Shown: one piece after another, positions 31,773-61,252 of the stretch
Numbering within the stretch: position 1 is the stretch's first letter
Layout: each line of letters begins with the position of its first letter
NCBI RefSeq assembly: GCF_017569205.1
Contig: NZ_CP071870.1
Coordinates: 310,001 to 374,000, forward strand
Source: Propioniciclava sp. MC1595
GTDB lineage: Bacteria; Actinomycetota; Actinomycetes; Propionibacteriales; Propionibacteriaceae
Direction of reading: 5' to 3'
Length of the DNA stretch: 64,000 nt
Notes under the pieces: generated by a model
What the model was told of the DNA's origin: nothing
The model's database searches: none
What the model saw: the letters and a program-made list of their open reading frames with translations, nothing else
Program-made: the position numbers and the translations under genes

Positions 31773-31802
31773 GGGGTTGGCGGCGCCCTCACACCACAGA
31801 TG

Positions 31803-31819
31803 CGCCGCATACCTTCAGT
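31803..31819. repeat. single-arm copy of the nested palindrome
   Basis: GCGCCGCATACCTTCAG differs at two positions from the left arm of the full palindrome 50 bp downstream. The surrounding 40 bp is also repeated imperfectly (CACAGATGCGCC at both places). No matching right arm follows. Confidence 0.6.
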
Positions 31820-31852
31820 TGCGCCGGATAGTGTCGCCCTCAGATCACAGAT

Positions 31853-31910
31853 GCGCCGGATACCGTCAGAGACGCCGGCTGCACCCGGCGCACCTGACGG
31901 TATCCGGCGC
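31853..31910. repeat. 58-nt nested palindrome, copy 1
   Basis: 17-nt arms (GCGCCGGATACCGTCAG and its exact complement) flank a 24-nt centre with its own hairpin (CGCCGG/CCGGCG around CTGCAC). GTTTGTTC follows on the + strand, so it could terminate argF transcription. A homologous element with the same 17-24-17 layout lies at 33260-33317. Confidence 0.8.
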
Positions 31911-31953
31911 GTTTGTTCAGGGGCGGGCGCGCTCGGGGTTCAGCGCCCATCGT

Positions 31954-32868
31954 TCAGCGGGTGAAGCCCAGGGCGGACTCGAACGCCCCGCGGATGCGGT
32001 CGCCCAGTCCTTGGACGTCCCAGGCCAGGCTCCAGCCCCAGTGGGTGGGCCACCACCTGCACTGGCGGATGAGCTCGTCGCGGTCCTGCTGCTCCCGCAC
32101 CACCTTGCCGGCCGAGGACCCTCGCGCGACCCGCTCGTCGTACTTGCCTTCCCCGTCGACCTCGCCGACGACCCCGCGGTCGGGCCAACCGAAGTCGCAG
32201 TCGGCGATCCAGCCCGAGGGGTTCGACACGCGGAACTGCAGCGTCGGTGCCGGCAGGCCGGCGCGGTCCATCGTCACGCGGCTCGCCGACTCGGCCGCCG
32301 ACTGGGAGCGCCCGTCGGCGAATGCGACCACTCTCCGCAGGGTCTCGACCCCGGACCGCCGGGCCGCCGCCTCGACGAGTCGGTCCAGTTCCGTGCGGGT
32401 CACCCCGCGGCGCAGGGCGTGGTCCATCGCGATGACCCCCCATGCGAACTGGACGCCCCGCGCCAGGTCCGCAGCCGTGCGGGACAGGGACGTCACCCGG
32501 ACGCCACCCACCTCGGTCACGTCCTCCTCGGTCAGGGGCGCGACGTGGACGTGGTACCCCGACCGCTTGCGCCCCCGCGCGGGAGGGGGCACGGTGAGGT
32601 GGACATCTCCCGGGTCGTTGTCGGAGACGGACAGCCCGTGCACGATCGCTGCTGTCACGTGGGACAGCGCCACCGACGTCCCCTGGCGCATCAGGATGCC
32701 GCGCGCCCGGGCCAGGTGGGCGTCCTTGCCCGACAGCTCGCGGGGCTCGCCGTAGATGCTCCGCACCGGGCGGGCGAGTTCACCGTTGGCGATGGCCGCG
32801 CGCAGCCGTCGGTCGCTCCAGCCCTCCTCGCGAAGCTTGGCGATCGGGCGCAGCAGGTAGTCGTCCAT
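31954..32868 (-). CDS. AbiEi-like/DUF559 protein (predicted PD-(D/E)XK nuclease-type domain)
   Basis: A 304-residue protein. The N-terminal half resembles the AbiEi antitoxin-type winged helix region (LREEGWSDRRLRAAI, then VALSHVTAAIVHG). The C-terminal half is a DUF559/Vsr-like fold with the acidic cluster VVGEVDGEGKYDE. No AbiEii toxin gene is adjacent, so it is an orphan. The ATG at 32868 starts where homology starts; the longer open frame adds no recognisable sequence. It lies between two homologous palindromes. A second member is at 46204-47085. Confidence 0.72.
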   Translation of the reverse strand: MDDYLLRPIAKLREEGWSDRRLRAAIANGELARPVRSIYGEPRELSGKDAHLARARGILMRQGTSVALSHVTAAIVHGLSVSDNDPGDVHLTVPPPARGRKRSGYHVHVAPLTEEDVTEVGGVRVTSLSRTAADLARGVQFAWGVIAMDHALRRGVTRTELDRLVEAAARRSGVETLRRVVAFADGRSQSAAESASRVTMDRAGLPAPTLQFRVSNPSGWIADCDFGWPDRGVVGEVDGEGKYDERVARGSSAGKVVREQQDRDELIRQCRWWPTHWGWSLAWDVQGLGDRIRGAFESALGFTR

Positions 32869-33021
32869 CGGGCCAGCCCACCAGACGCTGCTCCGCGTTG
32901 GGGCGCCTTCCCCAGCCGGACAACAAACGGACAACACCGTCTCAGGTTCTTCTTGGGTGCATTCACCCGCTGGGGTGAGGCGCCCCCCTGCCGTGAAACG
33001 GGACGGTGGTGGTAACGACAA

Positions 33022-33038
33022 GCCGCTGAGTCAGCGGC
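33022..33038. promoter_or_regulatory. perfect palindrome before the small membrane gene
   Basis: GCCGCTGA-g-TCAGCGGC is a perfect 8-bp inverted repeat 19 bp before the DUF6131-like start. It could be an operator or a short leader hairpin. Confidence 0.35.
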
Positions 33039-33056
33039 ATGAAAGGGGAGAACATC

Positions 33057-33203
33057 ATGGTTACCCTCGGCATCATCCTGCTGATCATCGGCCTGCTGGT
33101 GGACACCGGTCTTCCGCTGACCTACATCGGACTCGCACTGATCGTCATCGGCCTGATCCTGAACCTCGTCCCGATGGGCGGCAAGCGCATCAGGGTCTGG
33201 TAA
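33057..33203 (+). CDS. 48-residue membrane protein, DUF6131-like
   Basis: ATG to TAA with GGGGAG eight bases upstream. The protein has two hydrophobic helices (LGIILLIIGLLVDTG and YIGLALIVIGLILNLV), a Gly turn and a basic end (GGKRIRVW), like the small DUF6131 proteins of Actinobacteria. Function unknown. It is divergent from the DUF559 gene and followed by the second nested palindrome. Confidence 0.75.
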   Translation: MVTLGIILLIIGLLVDTGLPLTYIGLALIVIGLILNLVPMGGKRIRVW

Positions 33204-33259
33204 CGACCGTCGATCCGGGGGGCCTGAGAAGACCTGCCAGACACTCCCCCGAAACAGAA

Positions 33260-33317
33260 GCGCCGTTCCCAGTCGGACGCGCCGGATGCAGCCGGCGCTC
33301 CTGACGGGGAGCGGCGC
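33260..33317. repeat. 58-nt nested palindrome, copy 2
   Basis: Same 17-24-17 layout as copy 1. Arm GCGCCGTTCCCAGTCGG pairs with CTGACGGGGAGCGGCGC (14 Watson-Crick pairs, two G-T, one mismatch). The centre has GCGCCGG/CCGGCGC around a 6-nt loop. Relative to copy 1 three arm positions changed on both sides with pairing kept. Confidence 0.8.
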
Positions 33318-33365
33318 TTCTCTGTGCCTGTGCTCGGGCCGGGCCCGCGCGGGGTTCGGCAGGGG

Positions 33366-46203: not shown

Positions 46204-47085
46204 ATGCATCGAGACCTGATCGACGAGCTCTCCCAGCCTCCCCACCTGATCCTCGTGCGCGGGCGAGAGCGCATCCAGTGCCTCGCTCAACGTGCCTACG
46301 AGCGCGGTGAGCTGGTCCGGCCGTTGGCCGGTGTCTACGCGGCGGCCGACACGGCCGGGCTCGACGCACTCGCCGTCGTCGTCGGCACAGTGCACCCCGA
46401 CGCGGTGATCTCCGGCCGGGCCGCCGCCGCGTTGACATGGTGGCCCGAGCTGGAGGCCTCTGGGCTGACGGCTGTCGCGCGCCACCGGCTCGCGGGCGGT
46501 GATGGCATCTCCTTCGCGAAGGGAGTCGTTCCCCCCGAGCTGATCGTGGAGAGCAACGGCATCCGGCTCACCCATCCCTCCCTGACCGTGCTCGACCTCG
46601 TCCCCGAACTGGGCGGGGAGGCCATCGACGAGGCCCTCCGACGTGGGGTCATCACGCTCGACCAGCTCTGGGAGGCGCTCGCCCTCACCCCCCAGCGTGC
46701 GGGCAACAAGCAGCGGCGCTGGCTGCTCGAAGACTCGCGCGATGTTCCCTGGTCGCCGGCCGAGCGGGACCTCCACCGGATCTATCGCGGTCTCGACCTG
46801 TCCAGACGCCACCGCACCAACCACCGGGTCGACCTCCCGACGCGGGCTGCGTACATCGACCTCGCGCTGCCCGAGTTGCGGCTCGGGTTCGAGGTCGATG
46901 GGTGCGACCACCACTCCGGGCCGGTCGAGTTCCGGCGCGACCGCACGCGTGACCCCGAGCTGGCCGAACTCGGCTGGATGGTCGTGCGGTTCGATGCCAT
47001 CGATGTCTCCGACAACGCGGACTGGGTCCGTCACCGACTGCACGGCATCATCGCCGGCCGCGCGATCGACCTCGGTCTCACCTGA
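46204..47085 (+). CDS. AbiEi-like/DUF559 protein (predicted PD-(D/E)XK nuclease-type domain)
   Basis: A 293-residue protein with an N-terminal winged-helix-like region and a C-terminal DUF559/Vsr-type domain: YIDLALPELRLGFEVDG with HH following, then RDPELAELGWMVVRFD. The Asp/Glu residues match the nuclease active-site pattern, but activity is unproven. It is a second, divergent relative of 31954-32868. No partner toxin or methylase is adjacent. Start at the first ATG, just after a TACCTA stretch. Confidence 0.75.
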   Translation: MHRDLIDELSQPPHLILVRGRERIQCLAQRAYERGELVRPLAGVYAAADTAGLDALAVVVGTVHPDAVISGRAAAALTWWPELEASGLTAVARHRLAGGDGISFAKGVVPPELIVESNGIRLTHPSLTVLDLVPELGGEAIDEALRRGVITLDQLWEALALTPQRAGNKQRRWLLEDSRDVPWSPAERDLHRIYRGLDLSRRHRTNHRVDLPTRAAYIDLALPELRLGFEVDGCDHHSGPVEFRRDRTRDPELAELGWMVVRFDAIDVSDNADWVRHRLHGIIAGRAIDLGLT

Positions 47086-61122: not shown

Positions 61123-61135
61123 CGCCTCGGGACGC

Positions 61136-61200
61136 GACACTCACCCTTGTCACATTCACGGGGAATCTCTTCCCCCTCGGTTGTGACAAGGGTGAGTGTC
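61136..61200. terminator. perfect 19-bp inverted repeat between convergent genes
   Basis: GACACTCACCCTTGTCACA and its exact complement flank a 27-nt centre with an inner GGGGA/TCCCC hairpin. It lies between the ABC permease and the convergent MFS gene and could terminate both. Confidence 0.7.
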
Positions 61201-61252
61201 GGGGCGGGGCAGGGGCGGCGTTCGCGGGGGCCCGACGTTCCTGAGAGGTGCC

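Follow-up and report, generated by a model that had tools for sequence, protein, structure and literature searches.

Dispersed palindromes are common in bacteria, and the question raised by this locus is what two large hairpins are doing on either side of a nuclease-like gene, in a 1.6 kb stretch between argF and a HAD gene. The window, meaning the whole 64 kb stretch of DNA that was analysed (310001-374000 of a 3.43 Mb single-contig genome), contains both hairpins (Table 1) as the two longest of 21 inverted-repeat pairs, with arms of 35 and 33 nt and complementarity of 83% and 82%, respectively, and they are among only three palindromes in the 64 kb with at least 20 of 26 pairs. The initial annotation of this DNA had reported the two as 58-nt hairpins of two 17-nt arms around a 24-nt centre, with centres akin to each other and both strands changed together at arm positions 8-10, and all of these features were found again at the same coordinates. 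Pairing in hairpin 1 runs on into CAGnn/nnCTG flanks (about 31846-31918). The sequence that had been described as a single-arm copy at 31803 is present, though as part of a run of 19-nt units rather than as a lone copy; the run is short and weak and adjoins hairpin 1 (TRF, 31797-31878, period 19, score 52). Another strong palindrome in the window (61135-61201; 29-nt arms, 86% complementary, 9-nt loop) is unrelated in sequence by eye.

Table 1. Coordinates, in the window, of the features of the hairpin locus.
Feature	Coordinates	Strand	Description
Hairpin 1	31853..31910		3' side of nuclease-like gene; W7-N12-W7-loop6-W7'-N12-W7'
Hairpin 2	33260..33317		5' side of nuclease-like gene; layout as hairpin 1; paired region about 33253-33325
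19-nt-unit run beside hairpin 1	31797..31852	+	Weak TRF score
304-aa protein, AbiEi-like N-terminus and DUF559/Vsr-like C-terminus	31954..32868	-	Frame open further upstream to 33021
Codons E193 to K242, predicted PD-(D/E)XK-type motif	32143..32292	-	Residues invariant in 30 relatives
Two TTGTCC hexamers upstream of gene	32918..32934	-	Not full TT(A/G)TCCACA boxes
48-aa predicted membrane protein	33057..33203	+	Between nuclease-like gene and hairpin 2

Within each hairpin the palindrome is self-nested: a 7-nt word (W) appears again 19 nt inward and both occurrences are mirrored in the opposite arm. The layout given in Table 1 is mostly exactly 58 nt long, with a few loci fitting forms 1-2 nt longer, and the words vary by genome (GCGCCGG in the host, GCCCCCG in G005, ACCCCGG in G006, and GCACCRS in G151), while the outer and inner words of a hairpin mostly agree. 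The host genome holds five strong copies, the two in the window (31853 and 33260) and three elsewhere (genome positions 110697, 3166066, and 3395056), as well as a weaker, different hairpin pair that accompanies a second relative of the AbiEi-like gene (at ~2471801 and ~2472872). The five positions suggested clustering near one end of the numbering, an idea abandoned as in G005 and G151 the listed copies are scattered. Paired arm changes that keep the pairing, as had been described for the two window copies, are only weakly visible among the five host copies (both sides changed in 6 of 30 pairs; 72 of 500 shuffles reach the same) and strongly so in a gap-free alignment of 19 copies from nine genomes, where both sides changed in 27 of 31 pairs and the 128 double-change cells (shuffled mean, 48.6) were reached in none of 500 shuffles.

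The covariance-model search of relatives that the initial annotation had proposed revealed further copies, with hairpins in 13 of 57 relatives for model R1 (E ≤ 0.01) and in 40 of 197 family genomes, representing 11 of 29 genera, for model R2 (E ≤ 0.001). Model R2 includes five gene-flanking copies, and because its search scored the best 24 candidates per genome the copy numbers are lower bounds; the scan for the 58-nt layout and a looser palindrome scan used below are model-free. A known structured RNA family was discarded as an identity for the hairpin, with no Rfam match at gathering score and two microRNA lines well below threshold (26.3 and 25.9 bits vs 97 and 99). G005 carries direct arrays of degenerate 20-nt units headed by hairpins, one TRF span reaching 54.9 units with the hairpins included, and the 19-nt units beside hairpin 1 resemble a small version of these arrays. 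At the G005 loci L089-L103 (e.g., L096:2018-3138 and L092:1920-2770) there are sometimes several hairpin-plus-array modules in a row.

The gene between the window hairpins encodes a protein that, judged from its sequence, resembles a PD-(D/E)XK-like nuclease. Its N-terminal part is AbiEi-like (PADLOC AbiEi, 5.4e-23), with weak Pfam lines for AbiEi_4 in 10 and AbiEi_1 in 6 of 30 relatives, and in the C-terminal part E193, D225, E236-x-D238-G239, K242, and R263 are invariant in those relatives, one of which also has a weak match to REase_MTES_1575. The label of DUF559 gene given initially holds in part, as there is no Pfam DUF559 match for the 304-aa protein at cut-off, though a DUF559 protein encoded elsewhere in the window aligns to the profile of its family (97.3%, E 2e-11). 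DUF559 is reported to be frequent among Vsr-like PD-(D/E)XK nucleases (PMC12907096). A sequence search of solved structures up to E 10 returned no relative of the protein, single-sequence prediction gave no usable fold (pLDDT 39.5), and the NCBIfam search gave chance-like lines only. Upstream of many family genes there are DnaA-box-like TT(A/G)TCCACA sites (40 boxes in 80 regions of ~270 nt, L226-L305; none in 23.2 kb downstream; background, 0.0084 per kb), the majority pointing the same way (33 forward, 7 reverse), which hint at replication-linked expression of the family. These boxes are independent of the hairpins, with a forward box at 15 of 46 loci with hairpins and 15 of 34 loci without.

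An association of the AbiEi-like gene family with the hairpins is well supported. A protein search in 31 genomes gave 86 match rows, of which 81 correspond to the 80 loci examined (two G109 rows share a locus) and five weak rows fall outside them; five of the 80 loci have <300 nt of flank on one side. Hairpins with the 58-nt layout were found at 35 of the 80 gene loci and once in 1428 kb of control loci, and the looser scan detected 79 palindromes in 148 kb of gene flank compared to 60 in the control (0.53 vs 0.042 per kb). The control loci come from other genomes than the gene loci; position within the same loci provides a control independent of the choice of genomes, and here palindrome density reaches 2.31 per kb at 150-300 nt from the gene on the 5' side and 1.87 per kb at 0-150 nt on the 3' side, and past 450 nt it does not exceed 0.09 per kb. 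Palindromes occur on both sides of the gene at 29 loci, on one side at 17, and on neither at 34. At 28 of the 80 loci alike hairpins flank the gene on both sides; these loci represent 18 genomes and 8 genera (seven in Propionibacteriaceae and one in another family of the order). The count should not be read as a frequency within the gene family, because 25 of the 31 genomes were picked for having hairpin hits; the two-sided locus L262 (similarity 0.39) was left out of this set. The hairpin centres in the paired loci are 995-1407 nt apart (median, 1142). Viewed from the hairpins, five of the loci among 57 gene-called hairpin loci and the window directly adjoin relatives of the AbiEi-like gene.

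The two hairpins of one gene are more alike than hairpins of different genes (median similarity, 0.87 vs 0.42), with 32 of 35 same-gene pairs at or above the 99th percentile of 3046 different-gene pairs. Hairpin similarity also tracks protein similarity (Mantel r 0.49, 0/5000; 27 of the 28 paired loci), a result that backs co-inheritance as much as co-adaptation because shared descent feeds both. The association has exceptions in both directions, with genes without an R2 hairpin match in G002 and G012 and three hairpins in G024 without a close relative of the gene, and hairpins were present in none of four loci tested for distant gene relatives outside the order. The hairpin-linked genes constitute a subfamily below the Pfam DUF559 cut-off. 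A link of the hairpins with any DUF559 gene was rejected, since none of 22 PF04480 matches (seven genomes) lies within 5 kb of an R1-model hairpin. The window holds a second AbiEi/DUF559-type gene (46204-47085), above the Pfam DUF559 cut-off, and no palindromes lie beside it at the threshold of the looser scan. A phage or plasmid element was likewise rejected, the gene relatives including one phage record, four plasmid records, and no confirmed viral contig; a scan for shorter-arm palindromes at the four plasmid-record loci detected nothing.

The position of palindromes around the gene bears on the possibility that they are operators, bound by the AbiEi-type domain to autoregulate its own gene, with lone hairpins as further regulated sites. 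AbiEi is reported to autoregulate via inverted repeats in its own promoter (PMC7319586), and of the 79 palindromes in the gene flanks, 45 lie 5' of the gene. The remaining 34 are on the 3' side, however, lone copies occur at convergent gene ends and inside a gene, and the nuclease-type motif is invariant, such that we regard operators as an unlikely explanation.

Hairpins away from the gene mostly match a gene-flanking hairpin of their own genome. For 50 of 54 lone hairpins (chance, 2.1; one tie, L206), drawn from 12 genomes that also carry a gene-flanking hairpin and including related copies within a genome, the best match is a gene-flanking hairpin of the same genome, and counted by the majority of lone copies the match holds for 11 of the 12 genomes. 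The four lone hairpins that match another genome better are three of the eight from G151 and the single one from G009. The set of 54 excludes six lone hairpins from genomes without a gene-flanking hairpin (three in G024 and one each in G003, G007, and G142), along with six copies that flank the gene; it also contains neither the R1 hits of G008 and G041 nor the second G003 hit.

The neighbours of 57 hairpin loci, with gene starts taken from a simple purpose-written gene caller and start chooser, are convergent at 23, tandem at 24, divergent at 8, and undetermined at 2. One of the tandem loci is a copy within a gene, where a family hairpin lies in frame in murE of G151 (L212:1547-1620), inside ~36 extra residues relative to two PDB MurE chains. 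A similar orientation preference is described for REPs (PMC3733652). These placements weigh on the proposal that the hairpins are bidirectional intrinsic terminators made alike through duplication, for which the predominance of convergent and tandem loci, the position of many copies just past stop codons, and the location of both window copies between convergent genes would speak. Of the outcomes that the initial annotation had set against its own reading, a lack of further copies in relatives did not occur, and neither did confinement of the copies to transcript 3' ends, given the eight loci between divergent genes; these, together with the copy within murE, rule out terminators as the only function. 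Nor would termination by itself lead one to expect matching hairpins with gene-specific words to either side of a single gene family. The proposal retains a slim chance, and some hairpins may be terminators in addition.

A third possibility is that the hairpins are moved by a different enzyme, with the AbiEi-like gene caught as cargo between two copies, as might be expected from the 34 loci without a flanking palindrome and from genomes that have hairpins and lack a close gene. Against this, the span of ~1.1 kb offers room for one gene, the hairpins are gene-specific with a similarity that follows that of the proteins, and Y1 transposases, the family searched, were not found. The Y1/RAYT gene (PF01797) was found in none of the 13 genomes with R1 hairpins and in 3 of 57 genomes overall (G020, G050, and G056; hairpin genomes identified later, such as G151 and G173, fall outside the set), and mobilisation by Y1/RAYT was accordingly rejected for the tested genomes. 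We consider the cargo explanation to be improbable.

The window locus also differs from the others in its contents. Of the 28 paired loci the window has the least similar hairpins (0.74, tied with L285), and its pair stands wide of the gene with 391 nt on the 5' side and encloses the 48-aa gene, from which it follows that hairpin 2 may be an independent copy. The 48-aa protein had been called DUF6131-like; its sole Pfam line is DUF7550 (E 0.056) and the earlier label is not confirmed. Because in L127 and L131 the 48-aa gene lies directly after argF in opposite orientation, it is probably a bystander, and a two-gene cassette that includes it was rejected on the same ground. The earlier comparison of the hairpins to the ends of a cassette is borne out in kind, by the alike hairpins of the paired loci and the short argF-HAD gap of four named relatives, and not in the contents, the span elsewhere (~1.1 kb) being that of one gene. 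In G007 (L116:1869-2113) the 48-aa gene is followed 26 nt on by a hairpin with other words.

Comparison of filled and unfilled loci provides some indication of mobility. Among named argF relatives the closest come from a Propionibacterium MAG (86%), followed by Propioniciclava species (81-74%), so the host is probably a Propioniciclava-like member of Propionibacteriaceae. For L128, L129, L130, and L136, all named relatives, the gap from argF to HAD is ~115 nt or less. One convergent site carries the hairpin in G135 and G073, different palindromes in G104, and other repeats in G027. The G104 locus (L323) has two copies of another palindrome (with GTGTAGATCTGGCGCCCG) where the sister genomes carry the hairpin, and runs of GTTGAGCCTGTCGAAAC-like repeats occur at the convergent site in G027 (L324) and directly after argF in a Micropruina MAG (L139, after 10984). 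No exact empty site or target duplication was found at the compared loci, which give no exact ends because the intergenic sequence is too diverged; synteny at G135:C35 spans 51 nt only. Nearly all of the hairpins compared between G073 and G135 are common to both and, therefore, no recent jump was caught. We infer that the hairpins have been mobilised.

Taken together, it is probable that the hairpins are a dispersed, mobile-looking palindrome and that the AbiEi-like/Vsr-like gene between the window copies encodes, or once encoded, the partner protein. The best reading of this partnership is a REPIN/RAYT-like system in which an AbiEi-PD-(D/E)XK protein replaces the HuH transposase. The AbiEi-type N-terminus would recognise the 7-nt words at 19-nt steps in both arms and the PD-(D/E)XK-like C-terminal domain would nick the hairpin or its immediate surroundings, probably while replication leaves it single-stranded, after which repair or strand transfer would copy the hairpin into new, mostly intergenic sites. 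Such copying could generate both the paired arm changes and the matching inner and outer words, for which template switching inside the palindrome, together with slippage from unit to unit, offers an alternative source, one that might also account for the 20-nt arrays of G005. We infer the recognition, nicking, and copying steps alike. A bolder form of the proposal, for and against which we see the balance as even, is a second independent class of REP-like mobile repeat, with self-nested hairpins recognised word by word and spread by an AbiEi-PD-(D/E)XK nickase unrelated to the RAYTs, with gene and hairpins co-evolving across Propionibacteriales and occasional in-frame insertion into an essential gene.

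Among known systems, the partner protein shares an AbiEi-like N-terminal region with the AbiE type IV toxin-antitoxin systems, from which it differs in its extra nuclease-like C-terminus, and no AbiEii-like gene was recognised among the called window neighbours (argF, the 48-aa gene, and HAD). It is similar to DUF559/Vsr-like endonucleases in its profile alignment, its acidic residues and K242 are invariant among relatives, and it is unlike them in falling below the Pfam cut-off and in its link to hairpins, which the accessible text of PMC12907096 does not describe. A literature search for DUF559 or AbiEi tied to palindromes, REPs, or transposons, with most subscription papers and all preprints outside its scope, found no such link, and within that scope it looks like an AbiEi-like/PD-(D/E)XK-like enzyme has not previously been tied to such repeats. 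Rickettsia palindromic elements are palindromes able to insert in frame in coding genes, and the hairpins differ from them in that there is one in-frame case here (murE) and most copies are intergenic. The CGTC-tagged REPs, dispersed palindromes that are reportedly without a dedicated Y1 transposase (PMC3733652), are comparable in apparently lacking such an enzyme, though sequences and hosts differ.

The closest likeness is to REPIN/RAYT systems (the term REPtron comes from PMC3733652), which are described as an enzyme gene between palindromes with free matching copies elsewhere in its genome; the hairpins consist of two inverted repeats, compensatory changes are frequent, tandem clusters are ordered, and gene and palindrome co-evolve (PMC3116915, PMC3733652, PMC8266576). 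The present hairpins correspond in the gene between cognate palindromes, in dispersed copies that match the gene-flanking ones, and in compensatory changes, tandem clusters, and gene-palindrome co-variation. They depart in nesting one word at 19-nt steps, in the absence by eye of a GTAG or CGTC tag at the base of the window copies, and in a partner that is AbiEi-like/PD-(D/E)XK-like, the search of 13 hairpin genomes having found no Y1/HuH transposase. Because that defining Y1 (HuH) enzyme was not found, the hairpin-gene system is, by analogy, one that appears to work like REPIN/RAYT rather than a member of it. If true, this would provide a job for some orphan 'AbiEi antitoxin' genes of actinobacteria, and with many gene-hairpin pairs in visible co-evolution a recognition code could be read. 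In the papers cited here, the partner enzymes of dispersed bacterial palindromes are of the HuH type (RAYT/TnpAREP; PMC3116915, PMC3733652, PMC8266576); should the association be a catalytic one, that role would here have passed to a different nuclease fold.
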